Below, piece after piece: positions 51,621 to 58,958 of a DNA stretch of 64,000 bases (the first letter of the stretch is position 1; the number at the start of each line of letters is the position of its first letter). The notes below the pieces were generated by a model. It was given only the letters and a program-made list of their open reading frames with translations. It had not been told where the DNA came from and did no database searches. The DNA comes from Sulfuricurvum sp. (GTDB lineage Bacteria > Campylobacterota > Campylobacteria > Campylobacterales > Sulfurimonadaceae): contig NZ_JAQTNN010000001.1 of assembly GCF_028713855.1 (NCBI RefSeq), positions 124,001 through 188,000 of the forward strand, given 5' to 3'. Both the position numbers and the translations under genes were made by a program.

Positions 51621-54600
51621 ATGAGCACAATCCCTCCGTTTACCCACCTTCATCTCCATACCGAATATTCTCTTCTCGATGGCGCGAACAAGATTTCAGC
51701 TTTAGCGGCGCGAGTCAAAGAACTGGGGATGACTTCGGTCGCGATGAGCGATCACGGGAATATGTTCGGGGCGATTGATTTTTATCAACAGATGAGAGGG
51801 GCAGGACTCAAACCGATCATCGGGATGGAAGCCTACATCCATAACGGTGAAGATTTGGGAGACAAGACGATCAAACAACGTTTTCACGTTTGTTTGTTTG
51901 CCAAAAACGAAGCGGGTTATAAAAACCTCATGTACCTCTCGTCTCAAGCCTATATCAACGGCTTTTACTACTTTCCCCGCATTAACAAACAGCTCCTTCG
52001 TGAGAACTGTGAGGGGATTATCTGCACCTCGGCGTGTTTGCAGGGAGAAGTGAACTGGCATCTCAATACCAACAGCGAACGTAACGTTAAAAACGGGGCG
52101 TTAGGGTACGATGAGGCGAAGCGGATCGCGTTAGAGTACAAAGAGATTTTCGGGGATGATTTTTACATGGAGATCATGCGCCACGGGATAGCCGATCAGC
52201 TCTTTATCGACGAGCAGGTGATCCGTATCTCTCAAGAGACCAATATCAAACTGATCGCCACCAATGACACCCACTACACCTATGCGGGTGATGCTCAGTA
52301 TCACGAAGCATTTATGTGTATCGGGATGAATAAACTCTACGACGACCCGAAGCGGATGCGCCACTCCGTTCATGAGTTTTACATCAAATCCCCCGAGCAG
52401 ATGGCACGATTGTTTGCCGACATCCCCGAAGCGCTCTATAACACCCAAGAGATCGTGGATAAGTGCCAGCTCGAACTCAAACTCGGAAACCCGACACCGC
52501 CGAATTTCAAATTTACAACCGAATATGCCCTCGAAGAGGGGCTAACTATCGAGGAAGATTCGGAGTACTTTATCCACCGTTGCCGAATCGGTTTGGATAT
52601 ACGCCTCGAACATGTCCCCGCTGAACGCCATCAGGAGTATCGTGAGCGGCTAGAGTTTGAGATGCAGGTGATCAACCAGATGAAATTCCCCGGCTATATG
52701 CTGATCGTTTGGGATTTCGTCCGTGAAGCCAAACGGATGGGGATTGCCGTAGGACCGGGGCGGGGATCGGCGGCGGGGAGCCTCGTAGCCTATAGTCTTG
52801 AGATTACCGATATTGACCCGATGAAATATGATTTGCTTTTTGAGCGTTTTCTTAATCCTGAACGGGTATCGATGCCCGATATCGATATGGACTTCATGCA
52901 AGCGCGTCGCGGCGAGATTATTGACTACGTGGTGCGTAAATACGGGCGAGAGCAGGTGGCGCAGATCATCACGTTTGGTTCACTGTTAGCCAAAGGGGTT
53001 ATCCGCGACGTTGCGCGTGTTTTAGAGATGCCTCTCTCCCAAGCCGACATGATGGCGAAACTGATCCCCGATGAACTGGGGATTACCCTCAACGGTAAAA
53101 CCAAAGGGGGAGAGTTTAAACCCGGAGCATTCCAAAAAGAGCCGAAAATTTCCGAACTGATCGATAGCGATCCTCAGATAGCGCGTGTGTGGGAGTTTTC
53201 GAAAAAGCTTGAAGGGCTTAAACGCAATGCGGGGATGCACGCGGCGGGAGTCGTTATTTCCAACGAACCGCTTTGGAAGAAAACCCCGATCTACAAACCC
53301 TCAGGCGAGGAGACGTTTGTTACTCAGTATTCGCTCAACTATCTCGAAGACATCGACCTGATCAAATTCGACTTCTTGGGACTTAAAACGCTTGATGTTA
53401 TCGATAACGCGATCAAACTGATCAAAAAACGGTACGACGTCGAGGTAAACTGGCACACGATCGATGAGAACGATCCGAAAGTGTACGAAGTTATCCAAAG
53501 CGGTGACACCATCGGGATGTTCCAGATCGAGAGTTCGGGGATGCAGGATTTGAACAAACGGCTCAAGCCCAGCGTGTTCGAGGACTTGATTGCGGTACTC
53601 GCCCTTTACCGTCCGGGACCGATGGAATCGGGGATGTTGGATGACTTTATCGAGCGTAAACACGGTCGTCAGGCGATCACGTACGTATTCGCCGCACTGG
53701 AGCCGATCCTAAAACCGACCTATGGGGTTATCGTTTACCAAGAGCAGGTTATGCAGATCGTTCAAACCATCGGGGGGATGAGTCTCGGCGGTGCGGACAT
53801 CGTTCGTCGTGCGATGGGGAAAAAGAAACTCGAAGAGATGCAAAAATACAACCGTGAGTTTAGTGAAGGGGCGCAACAGCAGGGGCTAGACTACCAAAAA
53901 GCCTCCGAGCTCTTCGACTTGATCGAAAAATTCGCCGGATACGGATTCAACAAATCCCACTCAGCGGCGTACGCGATGGTTACGTTCCAAACGGCGTGGC
54001 TTAAAACCTACTACCCGCAAGAGTTTATGGCGGCACTCCTCACCTCTGAAAAAGACAACACCGACAAAGTCGTCAAATACATCGACGAAGCCAAACGGAT
54101 GAAAATCTTTCTCGGTGCTCCCGATATCAACCACTCACAGCTTGAATTCTCCGCGATTACCAAAGACGGTCAGGATCAAATCCTCTTCGGTTTGGGAGCG
54201 ATCAAAGGGGTCGGGGAAGCGGCGGTCGAGTCGATCCTCGAAGCCAGAGCTGAGGGGGAGTTCAAAGATATTCAAGACTTCACCAACCGTATCGAACCGC
54301 AAAAAGTGAACAAGCGAGTGATCGAGTGTATTATCAAAGCGGGGGGCTTGGATCATTTTGGATACTCTCGCCGTGCACTCTTGGAGCAGGTCGAAACCCT
54401 CGTCGAGACGGCAAAAAAAGGTTCGTCTTTGAAAAAAGATGCCCAATTTAGCCTTTTCGGGGATGATGAAGAGGTGACGGCAGTCGAGTTGAGCCTCAAA
54501 AATATGGACGAGTTCGACCTCAAAACGCTGCTGGATTTCGAGAAAGACACCCTCGGATTCTACGTCTCCGGTCATCCGCTCGATAACTTCCGCGAACAGA

Positions 54601-55160
54601 TCGACGCGATCAACTATACCCTCTCTAGTGAGGTTGAGAATATCGAGGACGGTTCCACTGCCATCTTTATCGGAAAAGTCGAAACGATCACGAAAAAGAT
54701 GTCGAAAAAAGGGTCTATGTTCGGACTGGTGAGCCTCATGGACTTCCACGGCAATATCGAAGTGATGCTCTTCAGCGACAGAGTTGATCAGCTCGAAGCG
54801 ATGGATCTCGATGAGCCGATTGCATTCAAGGTCAAAGTAACCCACACTGAGATGTTCACCCGCATCAGCGTCACGAAGATTATGACCCTTAATGAAGCGA
54901 AAAAAGAGGCGAAAAAGGTAGAGACGAAGATCGTCGAAAACCTCCCGCCACAGGAGCCGTTGCTGTTGCGTATCCGCCTCAGTGACAACTTAGAGACATT
55001 AGAGAAACTCTATACCCTTATTCGTCGTCATCCGGGACGCCGTGAGATCAAACTGACCATCGTTTCGAAACTTGCCGATGTCGTCATCGATTCGGCGATA
55101 CGGGTGGATAATAAGGTGATCGAAGAGTTAAGTGTTTTAGAAGATGTGGATGTAATATAA
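51621..55160 (+). CDS. dnaE: DNA polymerase III alpha subunit
   Basis: DnaE is the catalytic subunit of the chromosomal replicase. The 1179 residues show a PHP domain (about 5-280) with HLHTEYSLLDGA and MSDHGNMFGAIDFYQQ. The polymerase core has GPGRGSAAGSLVAYSLEI and the catalytic PDIDMDF, with a third aspartate in the palm. A beta-binding and helix-hairpin-helix region covers about 830-930, and an OB domain about 1020-1095. The PHP histidines look intact. The gene appears to be a single-gene unit followed by the HEPN-RhuM-DinD region. Confidence 0.97.
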   Translation: MSTIPPFTHLHLHTEYSLLDGANKISALAARVKELGMTSVAMSDHGNMFGAIDFYQQMRGAGLKPIIGMEAYIHNGEDLGDKTIKQRFHVCLFAKNEAGYKNLMYLSSQAYINGFYYFPRINKQLLRENCEGIICTSACLQGEVNWHLNTNSERNVKNGALGYDEAKRIALEYKEIFGDDFYMEIMRHGIADQLFIDEQVIRISQETNIKLIATNDTHYTYAGDAQYHEAFMCIGMNKLYDDPKRMRHSVHEFYIKSPEQMARLFADIPEALYNTQEIVDKCQLELKLGNPTPPNFKFTTEYALEEGLTIEEDSEYFIHRCRIGLDIRLEHVPAERHQEYRERLEFEMQVINQMKFPGYMLIVWDFVREAKRMGIAVGPGRGSAAGSLVAYSLEITDIDPMKYDLLFERFLNPERVSMPDIDMDFMQARRGEIIDYVVRKYGREQVAQIITFGSLLAKGVIRDVARVLEMPLSQADMMAKLIPDELGITLNGKTKGGEFKPGAFQKEPKISELIDSDPQIARVWEFSKKLEGLKRNAGMHAAGVVISNEPLWKKTPIYKPSGEETFVTQYSLNYLEDIDLIKFDFLGLKTLDVIDNAIKLIKKRYDVEVNWHTIDENDPKVYEVIQSGDTIGMFQIESSGMQDLNKRLKPSVFEDLIAVLALYRPGPMESGMLDDFIERKHGRQAITYVFAALEPILKPTYGVIVYQEQVMQIVQTIGGMSLGGADIVRRAMGKKKLEEMQKYNREFSEGAQQQGLDYQKASELFDLIEKFAGYGFNKSHSAAYAMVTFQTAWLKTYYPQEFMAALLTSEKDNTDKVVKYIDEAKRMKIFLGAPDINHSQLEFSAITKDGQDQILFGLGAIKGVGEAAVESILEARAEGEFKDIQDFTNRIEPQKVNKRVIECIIKAGGLDHFGYSRRALLEQVETLVETAKKGSSLKKDAQFSLFGDDEEVTAVELSLKNMDEFDLKTLLDFEKDTLGFYVSGHPLDNFREQIDAINYTLSSEVENIEDGSTAIFIGKVETITKKMSKKGSMFGLVSLMDFHGNIEVMLFSDRVDQLEAMDLDEPIAFKVKVTHTEMFTRISVTKIMTLNEAKKEAKKVETKIVENLPPQEPLLLRIRLSDNLETLEKLYTLIRRHPGRREIKLTIVSKLADVVIDSAIRVDNKVIEELSVLEDVDVI

Positions 55161-55183
55161 AAATATCAAAAGAGCTTTTCGTT

Positions 55184-55189
55184 TATAAT
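55184..55189 (+). promoter_or_regulatory. -10 box for the HEPN-RhuM operon
   Basis: GTTTATAAT is preceded by a T-rich stretch (AGCTTTTC), 23 bases before the HEPN gene ATG and 24 bases after dnaE. Confidence 0.5.
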
Positions 55190-55211
55190 CTAGTATTCTT
55201 AAGAGGTGGAT

Positions 55212-55745
55212 ATGAGTACTTATCAAATAGCAATTAATGAGTATAACCCAGAAGATGATGATGGTAAACATAAGCTAATCTATGCTTATTTTGGGCTTGC
55301 AGTTTATATTGGTCAATGCTTGGAAGAAACTTTTTCTATGATGCTGTTCACTGATAGAATAATTAAAAATAAAGTCAAAACAAATAAAGAAGTTAACGAA
55401 ATTATTGATTTAATAGATAGTTCAAAAAAAACAATGGGTGCCTTTATCAATGAAGTGAAACAAAGCTATTTATTATCTGATGAACTTAGAGATAAATTGG
55501 CTGAAATACTTGAACGTAGAAATTATTTGGTACATAAGTATTTTAAGTCTGAAATACAGAAATTTGCTTCAGAATTGGGTCAAAAAGAAATGTTAAATTA
55601 TTTTAGTAATTTTATAGATGATTCAAAGAATATTGATAATGAATTGAAGCCGTACTATTCGGAACATCTTAAATATCTTGGAATAACCGAGGAAATGGTT
55701 AACAAGATGATAGATGAAATAAAAAGTGGTAAAGGCGAAGTATGA
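55212..55745 (+). CDS. HEPN-domain protein, putative RNase toxin
   Basis: A 177-residue, mostly helical protein that I do not recognise as a named family. It carries a HEPN-type motif, R103-x4-H108-x-Y110 (ERRNYLVHKYFK), in the position expected for the fourth helix of HEPN RNases, preceded by a long acidic helical region. The ATG at 55212 follows AAGAGG; a GTG two codons earlier lies inside that site. The DNA is clearly more AT-rich than dnaE upstream, suggesting acquisition. Its stop overlaps the RhuM start by four bases (ATGA), so the two are co-translated. A HEPN toxin regulated by its partner is plausible. That is inference from the motif and the coupling. Confidence 0.6.
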   Translation: MSTYQIAINEYNPEDDDGKHKLIYAYFGLAVYIGQCLEETFSMMLFTDRIIKNKVKTNKEVNEIIDLIDSSKKTMGAFINEVKQSYLLSDELRDKLAEILERRNYLVHKYFKSEIQKFASELGQKEMLNYFSNFIDDSKNIDNELKPYYSEHLKYLGITEEMVNKMIDEIKSGKGEV

Positions 55746-56740
55746 GTCAAGTTATTTTTTATACTACCGAGGACGGAGCTACTAAGATTGATTTGCGCTT
55801 GGAAAATGGTACGATTTGGCTCTCTCAATTAGAAATAGCCGAACTTTTTCAAACCACCAAACAAAATATCAGCAAGCATATTCAAGCTATTTATGATGAA
55901 AATGAGTTAGAAGAAAAAGCAACTGTCAACCATCAGTTGACAGTTCAAAATGAAGGAAATCGAGAAGTTTCACGCAATATCGCACTCTATAATCTTGATG
56001 TAATTTTGGCAGTTGGCTATCGTGTACGTTCGGTTCGTGGGGTGCAGTTTAGGCGATATGCTTCCACTGTGTTGAAAGAGTATCTTCAAAAAGGATTCGT
56101 ACTTAATGACGAGCGATTAAAAAACCTCGGTGGCGGTAACTACTGGAAAGAGTTACTTGATCGTATTCGAGACATTCGTTCCAGTGAAAAAGTGATGTAC
56201 CGTCAAGTGTTGGAGTTGTACGCTACAGCAACAGACTATGACCCTAAAAGTGAGAATAGTCTCACTTTTTTTAAAATCGTACAAAATAAACTGCACTACG
56301 CCGCCCACGGACATACCGCCAGTGAGGTGATTTATCTGCGTGTGGACAGTGACAAACCCTTTGCAGGTGTGACAAACTTCAAAGGGAGCCAACCGACACA
56401 AGCCGAAGCGATGGTTGCCAAAAACTACCTTAGTGAGCAAGAACTCCGCGTACTCAATAACCTCGTTTCGGCGTATTTTGACTTGGCGGAACTAAACGCT
56501 ATCGAAGAGCGGGAAATGCGGATGGAAGATTATGTACGGGAACTGGATAATATCCTCTCATCTACGGGGCGAAAATTACTCACCAATGCGGGAACCATAG
56601 GGCACACCCAAGCCCAAATCAAAGCCAAAGTGGAGTTTAAAAAATACAAAGCCAAAACGCTGGAACAGGTCGAAGAAGAGTACCTAGAAACTATCAACAC
56701 CCTAGAGAAAACAGCCAAAGCAGAGAGCCGTAAAGCATGA
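55742..56740 (+). CDS. RhuM-family protein
   Basis: A 332-residue RhuM-family protein. RhuM was named from a Salmonella pathogenicity island; its function is unknown. The N-terminal half looks like a DNA-binding domain (TKQNISKHIQAIYDENEL, NIALYNLDVILAVGYRVRSV). A middle region (ASEVIYLRVDSDKPFAGVTN) and a helical C-terminal domain follow. It begins in a four-base overlap with the HEPN gene. RhuM proteins are frequent in mobile or defence islands. A role as antitoxin or sensor for the HEPN protein is a guess. Composition is closer to the genome average than that of the HEPN gene. Confidence 0.88.
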   Translation: MSQVIFYTTEDGATKIDLRLENGTIWLSQLEIAELFQTTKQNISKHIQAIYDENELEEKATVNHQLTVQNEGNREVSRNIALYNLDVILAVGYRVRSVRGVQFRRYASTVLKEYLQKGFVLNDERLKNLGGGNYWKELLDRIRDIRSSEKVMYRQVLELYATATDYDPKSENSLTFFKIVQNKLHYAAHGHTASEVIYLRVDSDKPFAGVTNFKGSQPTQAEAMVAKNYLSEQELRVLNNLVSAYFDLAELNAIEEREMRMEDYVRELDNILSSTGRKLLTNAGTIGHTQAQIKAKVEFKKYKAKTLEQVEEEYLETINTLEKTAKAESRKA

Positions 56741-56830
56741 GTCGCATAATGGAATTGCTTCAAGTCAGCGGAGCCATTATGGGGAATAATAACAATCTGT
56801 CATATTTTGGAGTGAATTCTCGTCCAAAGC

Positions 56831-56836
56831 TATAAT
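56831..56836 (+). promoter_or_regulatory. -10 box for dinD
   Basis: AGCTATAAT lies 30 bases before the dinD ATG in the 125-base gap after RhuM. The ribosome-binding site is AAGGA. No LexA-type operator is seen, and Campylobacterota generally lack LexA. Confidence 0.5.
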
Positions 56837-56865
56837 ATTTATAGATTTGCGCGAAGGAAAATGCA

Positions 56866-57720
56866 ATGGAAAAACAATTGATAACCTCTCTCCATAAAAG
56901 CTTCGAAGATGCGGTGCATGAACAAGAGGGTGTAGAATTTTGGTATGCTAGAGAATTGATGCGGCTTTTGGAATATACCAAATGGGACAACTTTAAACAA
57001 GTTATCGAAAAAGCGAAAACGGCATGTCAAAATTCAGGACAATCGGTAGTAGACCATTTTCCCGACGTCGGGAAAATGGTAGAGATCGGAAGTGGTGCAC
57101 AAAAAACGGTTGATGATTATATGCTCACCCGCTACGCTTGCTATCTCATCGCTCAAAACGGTGATCCGCGAAAAGAGCGTATTGCGTTTGCCCAAAGCTA
57201 TTTTGCCCTCCAAACCCGCAAACAAGAACTTCTCGAAGAGCGTATTTCCCTCTCCGAACGGCTCGAAGCCCGTCAAAAACTTACCGCTACCGAAACGGAA
57301 CTCTCTAAAAACATATATGAACGGGGAGTTGATAATCAAGGGTTCGGACGTATCTGCAGTAAAGGGGATAATGCACTATTCGATGGATATAATACGCAAG
57401 AGATGAAAGCAAAGATGGGGATACCCGAAAATCGTCCTATCGCTGATTTTCTCCCGACGATTACGATCAAGGCAAAAGACCTCGCAACTGAGATTACCAA
57501 CTATAATGTCAAAGCGCGTGATTTGTATGGTGAACAACCGATTACGAGCGAGCATATTAAAAATAATAGTGAAGTTCGGGAACTGTTGGGCAAAAGCGGG
57601 ATTAAACCCGAAGAGCTATCCCCCGAAGAGGATATTAAAAAGCTCGAACGCAGAGTGAAAATGAATGACAAAAAACTAGCACAAAACACTCAAAAAATAG
57701 AGAGTAAGGATAAAGGGTAA
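56866..57720 (+). CDS. dinD: DNA damage-inducible protein D (DinD)
   Basis: A 284-residue DinD homologue. E. coli DinD (about 274 residues) is an SOS protein that inhibits RecA filament function. The N-terminal BRO-like region includes EFWYARELMRLLEYTKWDNF. The most conserved stretch is GSGAQKTVDDYMLTRYACYL, with IAQNGDPRKERIAFAQSYFA following. The C-terminus is a charged, probably coiled tail (KKLERRVKMNDKKLAQ). It has its own promoter, and its stop shares one base with the aminopeptidase start. A perfect 28-base palindrome lies inside the gene. DinD in a class without LexA must be regulated differently or be part of the neighbouring accessory module. Confidence 0.9.
   Translation: MEKQLITSLHKSFEDAVHEQEGVEFWYARELMRLLEYTKWDNFKQVIEKAKTACQNSGQSVVDHFPDVGKMVEIGSGAQKTVDDYMLTRYACYLIAQNGDPRKERIAFAQSYFALQTRKQELLEERISLSERLEARQKLTATETELSKNIYERGVDNQGFGRICSKGDNALFDGYNTQEMKAKMGIPENRPIADFLPTITIKAKDLATEITNYNVKARDLYGEQPITSEHIKNNSEVRELLGKSGIKPEELSPEEDIKKLERRVKMNDKKLAQNTQKIESKDKG
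57053..57080. repeat. Perfect 28-base palindrome inside dinD
   Basis: Arms ACCATTTTCCCGAC and GTCGGGAAAATGGT meet without a loop. All 14 base pairs match and the next pair fails. It encodes the HFPDVGKMV part of DinD. See findings. Confidence 0.9.
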
Positions 57721-58958
57721 TGCGCGAATTTAACGAAGAACTGATCCAATTTATCGATGCTTCCCCGACACCGTTTCATGCGGTAGCATGGTTGGCGAAG
57801 ATGTTGGAATGTCATGGGTTTATCCGTCTTGAGGAAGATCAAGTCTGGAACCTCGAAGAAGATAAGGATTATTATGTAACCCGAAATGATTCTTCGATTA
57901 TCGCGTTTACCTATCCGCCGTGTAATGAAAAAGGGTATACCATTGTCGGTGCCCATACCGACTCGCCTCATTTGCGTCTCAAACCTAATCCTCTGACGAC
58001 GGTAGCAGGTGTCAAACGGCTCGGTGTCGAGCCGTATGGCGGAGTATTGCTCAATCCGTGGTTTGATCGTGATCTGGCGCTTGCTGGTCGTGTTGTTTAT
58101 TTGGAAGGCGATGTGCGCCGTGAAGCGCTCATAAATATCCTTTCTCCCATCGCCGTTATCCCCTCATTAGCGATCCATCTCGATCGTGAGGCTAACTCTT
58201 CCCGATCGATCAACGCACAAACTGATATTGTTCCGATCATAGCAACCGGTGATGTTGATTTTGATAAATTTATCCTCTCCCAAATCCAAGAAGATATAAG
58301 CGGATTGACTCTGCTGGCACATGAACTTAGTTTCTATGATGTTCAAAAAGGCTCTTTTATCGGAATAAACCAAGAATTTATAACATCGGCACGTTTGGAC
58401 AATCTCCTCAGCTGTTACATTGGGATGAGTGCTCTGATGGAAACCTCTTATCCGATGATGGTCGCCTGTTTGGATCATGAAGAGGTGGGAAGTGATTCTC
58501 ATGTCGGAGCAGGGGGGACGTTTGTGGAAGAGATACTCCGCCGTATTTCCGGAGATAAATTCACAACGTTGATGCGCCGTTCGCTGATGGTATCGTGTGA
58601 TAATGCTCATGCCCAACATCCGAATTTCCCGAGTAAACATGATTCTGAACATGCTCCGCTTTTGAATCAAGGGGTTGCCGTGAAGATTAATTCGAACCAA
58701 CGTTATGCGACTTCTGCCCGGACACAGGGACGGTTCGTTCAATGTGCCAGATCGCTGCATATCCCTATTCAAACCTTTGTGACGCGCAGCGATATGGGAT
58801 GCGGTTCGACGATCGGACCGATCAGTGCAACCCGTCTGGGGATAGAGACAATCGATGTCGGCGTTCCGACACTCGCCATGCATTCGATTCGTGAGCTTTC
58901 CGGTGTCAGTGACGCCTACGGACTTTATCGTATCTTAGTGCATCTGGGTGATTTCTAA
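57720..58958 (+). CDS. M18-family aminopeptidase
   Basis: A 412-residue M18 metallo-aminopeptidase of the ApeB (aspartyl aminopeptidase-like) group that removes N-terminal residues from peptides in the cytoplasm. Zinc-binding motifs are HTDSPHLRLKPNP, CLDHEEVGSDSHVGAGG and a late SIRELSGVSDAYG containing the final histidine just before it (AMHS). SCDNAHAQHPNFPSKHD is family-typical. Its ATG shares one base with the dinD stop, and its stop shares one base with the kinase start. It is probably read through from upstream. Confidence 0.93.
   Translation: MREFNEELIQFIDASPTPFHAVAWLAKMLECHGFIRLEEDQVWNLEEDKDYYVTRNDSSIIAFTYPPCNEKGYTIVGAHTDSPHLRLKPNPLTTVAGVKRLGVEPYGGVLLNPWFDRDLALAGRVVYLEGDVRREALINILSPIAVIPSLAIHLDREANSSRSINAQTDIVPIIATGDVDFDKFILSQIQEDISGLTLLAHELSFYDVQKGSFIGINQEFITSARLDNLLSCYIGMSALMETSYPMMVACLDHEEVGSDSHVGAGGTFVEEILRRISGDKFTTLMRRSLMVSCDNAHAQHPNFPSKHDSEHAPLLNQGVAVKINSNQRYATSARTQGRFVQCARSLHIPIQTFVTRSDMGCGSTIGPISATRLGIETIDVGVPTLAMHSIRELSGVSDAYGLYRILVHLGDF

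Follow-up and report, generated by a model that had tools for sequence, protein, structure and literature searches.

The protein encoded directly upstream of rhuM in this Sulfuricurvum genome is very likely a HEPN protein. The locus probably holds a horizontally acquired stand-alone HEPN ribonuclease of an abortive infection-like kind, which lies beside an independent and promiscuous RhuM. From the sequence alone, the two genes had been put forward as a candidate toxin-antitoxin or defence module; no recurrent linkage was seen from either side in the loci examined, and they were probably brought together by chance, through the exchange of cassettes in a cargo hotspot between dnaE and an aminopeptidase gene.

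Organization of the locus

The window, i.e., the whole stretch of 64,000 nucleotides analysed here, is part of a 2.8 Mb genome. Three open reading frames (ORFs) separate dnaE from the aminopeptidase gene, namely a HEPN-type ORF, rhuM and dinD. The features of the region are:

51621..55160, plus strand: dnaE, left edge of the hotspot (named by eye)
55161..56768, no strand: exchanged HEPN-rhuM segment, approximate (blastn against same-genus loci)
55212..55745, plus strand: HEPN-type protein of 177 amino acids with the putative RNase site R103-N104-x3-H108-x-Y110; unnamed family with mostly stand-alone members (translation, motif conservation in relatives, Pfam matches below cut-off, AlphaFold2 model)
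55742..55745, plus strand: ATGA, four-base overlap of the HEPN ORF and rhuM (sequence)
55742..56740, plus strand: RhuM family protein (PF13310) of 332 amino acids, PADLOC candidate family PDC-S05
56770..56789, plus strand: probable remnant of a yoeB toxin gene that was lost except for its final codons (RSHYGE and two stops)
56866..57720, plus strand: DinD (DNA damage-inducible protein D), PADLOC PDC-S13; separate cargo, present in L219 without HEPN and RhuM
57720..58958, plus strand: aminopeptidase gene, right edge of the hotspot (M18 type by eye)

The gene boundaries and the four-base overlap are as the sequence-only reading had given them; an in-frame GTG at 55206 lies upstream of the start of the HEPN-type ORF. 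RhuM covers positions 1-249 of the 252 positions of PF13310 (2.3e-100; 335.5 bits, cut-off 33.7) and is thus of full length, and DinD was identified by NCBIfam (3.1e-108). Both of these neighbours are covered by candidate defence families of PADLOC. The PADLOC model PDLC04871 (468 positions) matches DinD with its first part (7.2e-28) and RhuM with a later part (1.7e-93), which implies natural fusions of a DinD-type N-terminus with RhuM. Within dinD, a perfect palindrome of 20 bases is located at 57057-57076, and similar pieces are found shortly before the aminopeptidase gene in the loci L196 and L194/L223 (one genome); as a dispersed repeat, the palindrome was rejected, since it occurs only once in its own genome at up to two mismatches.

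The AT-richness previously noted for the first gene is pronounced: its GC content of 27.9% (28.1% from the GTG) is the lowest among the 44 window ORFs of at least 150 amino acids, whose mean is 43.4% (sd 3.5), and compares with 42.7% for rhuM. This gap argues for separate origins of the two genes, but does not prove them. Both genes had also been placed under one promoter, a claim which the scan does not bear out: among sites of the sigma-70 consensus type, searched from 55100 to 57000, none was found on the plus strand before 55212, and the seven sites detected in this region are no excess over the 6.1 expected from shuffled sequences. Shared transcription of the HEPN gene and rhuM is only inferred from their overlap.

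Probable HEPN identity of the first gene product

The first gene had been described as encoding a helical protein with a canonical HEPN motif. The numbering of R103, H108 and Y110 is right and the HEPN type is supported, but the motif alone is weak evidence, because R-x4-H is found in 15 of the 44 window ORFs of at least 150 amino acids, the HEPN-type ORF being one of the 15. The extended pattern R-x4-H-x-[YFH] is present in four of these ORFs, again including the HEPN-type ORF. The motif gains weight because it is conserved in relatives and because the protein is modelled as helical. In an alignment of 62 members, made up of the window protein and sequences from 61 of the loci L010-L078 (of these 69 loci, six were left out because of their length, and L070 and the duplicate L075 were also omitted), R103 is present in 62/62 and H108 in 54/62 sequences, both residues occur together in 54/62, and Tyr or Phe stands at position 110 in 61/62.

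Seven of the eight sequences without H108 belong to Hymenobacter/Solirubrum (L017, L020, L024, L025, L032, L041 and L042). In this clade, the arginine is retained and the motif histidine is replaced by Asp (six sequences) or Gly (one sequence); the eighth sequence, L069, carries Asn at this position. These replacements suggest that the Hymenobacter/Solirubrum members are naturally non-catalytic or possess an altered site, and with 8 of 62 relatives lacking H108, part of the family may not function as a catalytic RNase.

All Pfam matches of the window protein stay below the curated cut-offs. The best Pfam match is DUF3644 (PF12358) with 8.2e-5 and 22.7 bits (curated cut-off 27.6); the HepT-like family PF01934 scores 20.5 bits (4.1e-4; curated cut-off 23.5) and the NCBIfam HepT model NF047751 19.1 bits (curated cut-off 60). 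In PADLOC, the protein scores best with LeoB, but weakly so (2.3e-4), and LeoB is not a HEPN model. Searches of the PDB by sequence, using either the single protein or the 62-member profile, matched no HEPN structure. The AlphaFold2 model built on the 62-member alignment is all helical (pLDDT 90, pTM 0.82). Rows 1-13 of the VIA comparison with this model have Z scores of 7.1-8.0 and an rmsd of 3.1-4.7 over 104-127 residues; nine of them are titled HEPN, MntA-HepT or toxin-antitoxin (7bxo), two are titled nucleotidyltransferase and two carry other titles (1ylm, 1wwp). Unrelated helical proteins appear from Z 7.0 downwards, just below the HepT-type rows (Z 8 at most), and the fold match to HepT-type toxins is therefore supportive, not decisive. 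Foldseek returned no match to the model at E 0.001, and its first weak match was a HEPN protein (E 0.25).

Distribution and neighbours of the HEPN family

The HEPN family is widespread. A scan with one peptide pattern, which makes the counts lower bounds, found members in at least 64 genome-contig loci and five viral-contig loci, and seven plasmid records match as well. Among the taxa of the genome-contig loci are Sulfuricurvum, Bacteroidota, Pseudomonadota, Paenibacillus, Planctomycetota and Chloroflexi. The set of 75 other loci consists of the 64 genomic and five viral loci, five of the seven plasmid records and the same-genus copy L002 from genome G176; with the window included, the 76 loci contain 73 distinct sequences. 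In the phylum sample, 4 of 397 genomes matched, of which the window's own genome and G176 were kept, while L003 and L004 were dropped as they did not match the family profile.

The closest full-length relatives found are a copy on an Emticicia plasmid (62% identity) and a Tenacibaculum copy (59%), whereas the same-genus copy L002 shares only 29% identity with the window protein. Together with the GC gap described above, the greater similarity to relatives from distant taxa points to different histories of the HEPN gene and rhuM. L002 shares a run of ORFs with L052, which is also from Sulfuricurvum; the genes beside the Emticicia and Tenacibaculum copies differ from those in the window.

In 40 of the 76 loci, the strand changes between the HEPN gene and the next ORF; a same-strand ORF follows within 50 bp in 12 loci and at a greater distance in 24. 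When at most three ORFs to either side of the HEPN gene were compared, no partner recurred across the family in the 15 largest neighbour clusters. These clusters are mainly made up of close relatives (Paenibacillus, Hymenobacter/Solirubrum and two Sulfuricurvum-type copies); the others are a reverse transcriptase/SLATT pair, one mixed cluster of 10 members and three clusters of two members. Individual copies have defence genes as well as other genes in their surroundings: an RloB gene lies near the Emticicia plasmid copy, with kwaB further off, QatC/QatD are neighbours of a Vibrio plasmid copy, HsdM is found near the HEPN gene of L074, and one family member is located inside a DUF3265-rich cassette-like array of Vibrio. 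In L021, L075, L076 and L077, the HEPN gene adjoins a convergent pair of reverse transcriptase (RVT_1) and SLATT_5 genes, which were assigned by Pfam in L076 and by similarity in the other three loci; the HEPN sequences of L021 and L075 are identical. By eye, the HEPN slot of L076 and L077 resembles cargo among P2-like baseplate genes.

Genes preceding rhuM

RhuM had been regarded as a gene common in mobile regions, and the view of it as an accessory, mobile gene with defence-type surroundings is supported. A RhuM match is present in at least 155 of the 397 genomes of the phylum. From these, 110 loci with higher-scoring, mostly full-length matches were read with about 1.3-2.3 kb on either side (30 loci from the search output and 80 picked by hand); the window's own locus is not among them. 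A same-strand ORF is located upstream of rhuM in 104 of the 110 loci, and in 73 of these 104 it overlaps rhuM or ends within 30 bases of it. An overlap of exactly four bases is found in 15 of the 104 cases and is thus nothing special for rhuM. The upstream proteins were chosen mechanically as ORFs, and some are truncated where the DNA ends; at 1e-4 they have matches to 55 Pfam families, which overlap in part. Among these are Methylase_S (type I specificity; 11), N6_Mtase (7), SLFN_AlbA_2 (4), ParE (4), SMODS (3), Fic (3), RhuM itself (3), Abi_2 (2), DUF4145 (2) and PemK (2), but also neighbours unrelated to defence such as a class I tRNA synthetase match. Among the 110, the rhuM gene most similar to that of the window (L185, 70% identical) is preceded by a Fic gene. 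In L103, L135 and L188, RhuM directly follows a gene for a SMODS-type nucleotidyltransferase (assigned by Pfam in L103, by eye in L135 and L188), an order which is reminiscent of second-messenger defence systems.

RhuM could be a general add-on, acting as sensor, regulator or second effector with whichever effector precedes it, and the HEPN protein would then be one of its clients. The regular presence and close spacing of a same-strand upstream gene, together with the many defence or toxin families among these genes, are in line with this idea; however, the same pattern would be expected of any hitchhiker in compact defence operons, the counts are for rhuM alone, and some neighbours plainly have no connection to defence. 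We consider this explanation unlikely. It is rather improbable that many defence effectors share RhuM as an exchangeable partner, which would control the preceding effector or sense for it. If this were the case, the window locus would be a natural minimal example, in which one small RNase is combined with RhuM and no restriction system adjoins. Irrespective of its function, the survey provides a first map, for one phylum, of the genes that precede rhuM, a gene long labelled only as "virulence protein".

Linkage between HEPN genes and rhuM

In the sequence-only reading, RhuM would control a HEPN RNase; in a dedicated module of this kind, be it a toxin-antitoxin pair or a defence system of two genes, the HEPN protein would cut RNA and RhuM would restrain or activate it. 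The four-base overlap would fit such a module, as would the four loci out of 104 in which an Abi_2 or DUF4145 gene immediately precedes rhuM (two each, each confirmed singly) and the association of RhuM with PrrC-like HEPN genes reported in PMC3710099. It is opposed by the neighbourhoods on both sides: RhuM was found by tblastn in 0 of the 75 other HEPN-family loci, 73 of which had at least 1.1 kb of downstream DNA read, and the HEPN family was found in 0 of the 110 RhuM loci of the phylum, using the window protein and the family profile. It was absent from six viral RhuM loci, too. The RhuM search was sensitive enough, because RhuM proteins of 38-40% identity were recovered in 2 of 30 Abi_2 control loci, which had been taken from some 70 places listed. 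These two finds (L239 and L249) are the same genome places as L165 and L157 of the RhuM survey and do not represent extra cases. The differing GC contents, the lack of a fixed HEPN partner elsewhere and a congener that carries RhuM and YefM-YoeB without HEPN at the same site (L225) also speak against a dedicated module, which we regard as very unlikely.

The HEPN-RhuM combination was therefore rejected as a conserved module, no linkage having been seen from either side in the loci examined, an outcome which the sequence-only reading had itself named as a refutation. The overlap was likewise rejected as a sign of pairing, because genes of many different kinds overlap or adjoin rhuM. The search for HEPN genes upstream of rhuM, which the sequence-only reading had recommended, did recover HEPN families in the form of Abi_2 and DUF4145, but not the family of the window. 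HEPN genes before rhuM thus occur, but not as one conserved pair: three HEPN families precede rhuM, i.e., the window family, Abi_2 and DUF4145, and they appear as part of a broad client range. The four Abi_2 and DUF4145 cases leave room for some functional affinity between HEPN proteins and RhuM.

A cargo hotspot between dnaE and the aminopeptidase gene

The site between dnaE and the aminopeptidase gene is a cargo hotspot. Of 41 genus genomes searched, 36 have the aminopeptidase, and 30 loci were surveyed. The site is empty in six of the 30 loci, in which dnaE ends 8-9 bp before the aminopeptidase gene; ORFs lie between the two genes in the window and in 12 other loci, and in the remaining 11 loci, dnaE was not seen within the DNA read. 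The cargo of congeners includes YefM-YoeB, DUF433, DUF5615, a SIR2-NB-ARC-TPR protein, and RhuM or DinD without HEPN. The large SIR2-NB-ARC-TPR protein fills the hotspot in L221 (assigned by Pfam), and a similar gene, recognized by eye, lies before the aminopeptidase gene in L223.

In blastn comparisons, same-genus loci match the window up to about 55160, the end of dnaE, and the match resumes at about 56770 or 56789. L219 is 87% identical to the window up to 55160 and 90% identical from 56789 onward, with different DNA between; it encodes a DinD that is 95% identical and two short ORFs on the opposite strand, but neither HEPN nor RhuM. L225 contains RhuM (42-43% identical), YefM-YoeB and several other genes at the same site, again without HEPN. 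These comparisons indicate that HEPN-rhuM is a segment which can be replaced independently of dinD, whether it came as one piece or was put together from parts. A probable yoeB remnant lies between rhuM and dinD: at 56770-56789, 18/18 and 20/21 bases match the yoeB ends in L220 and L222, and a stretch of 70 bases is 76% identical to L225, where it aligns with the end of yoeB and the DNA following it. YoeB in the genome of L225 was confirmed by Pfam (L109).

The fast turnover of the site and scars such as the yoeB remnant could also mean that the HEPN gene and rhuM are decaying passengers of the hotspot without a present function. Both reading frames are, however, intact and of full length, and the HEPN protein has retained its motif; decay is very unlikely.

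A model for the HEPN-rhuM locus

According to the explanation that we favour, i.e., a stand-alone HEPN RNase beside an independent RhuM, cassette exchange in the dnaE/aminopeptidase hotspot would have brought the two genes together. The HEPN protein would stay silent until it is triggered by stress or phage and would then act alone as an RNase of the abortive infection kind. By analogy with the superfamily, two R-x4-H sites of a HEPN dimer may form one composite active site that cuts RNA; HEPN proteins are typically dimeric ribonucleases according to PMC13092281, and PMC3710099 describes solitary HEPN genes in defence islands as often coding for abortive infection proteins. RhuM would not be required for this activity: it is probably an independent accessory gene, found in this phylum behind a wide range of unrelated genes that include defence and toxin genes, and the ATGA overlap would provide co-expression without an obligate partnership. 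The family, which is unnamed, mostly stand-alone and apparently distantly related to HepT/DUF3644, would then be a candidate single-gene defence RNase whose window member lies below the cut-offs of all Pfam models.

Comparison with known systems

The window protein resembles HepT (PF01934), the toxin of the type VII toxin-antitoxin system HepT-MntA, in its R-x4-H-x-Y motif and its helical build. HepT-MntA, however, has a nucleotidyltransferase antitoxin, whereas the neighbours in the window are dnaE (by eye), RhuM and DinD, and a Pfam scan of RhuM and DinD detected no nucleotidyltransferase. The DUF3644/EC042_2821 group, described in PMC3710099 as HEPN proteins in R-M operons, provides the best Pfam match of the window protein, although below the cut-off, and only one of the 62 window-family members matches PF12358 at E 0.01. 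Stand-alone Abi-type HEPN genes (Abi_2/AbiD/AbiF, ApeA) likewise occur in defence surroundings, and the same source names Abi_2 and DUF4145 as HEPN families; the ApeA and AbiD profiles gave a few weak matches among relatives of the window protein, and by sequence, the window family is not a member of these groups. A HEPN protein from an integron cassette (PDB 3jrt, mentioned in PMC3710099) is not among the PDB matches of the 62-member profile at E 10, but the window family also has a member in a cassette-like array of Vibrio. For RhuM, PMC1626090 reports nine proteins that are homologous to the Doc-type toxin TasB and whose N-termini resemble RhuM.

It had been noted that no described HEPN-RhuM system is known. 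This holds for a dedicated pair, none of which was found among the matches listed in the open-access literature, but not for any association of the two: PrrC-like HEPN genes in R-M loci are associated with RhuM, which was proposed to be a toxin and not an antitoxin, as reported in PMC3710099. The PrrC-like loci thus resemble the window locus in having HEPN and RhuM in one neighbourhood. They differ from it in that PrrC contains an ABC ATPase and is surrounded by R-M genes, while the window protein is without an ATPase part and has dnaE, RhuM and DinD as its neighbours.
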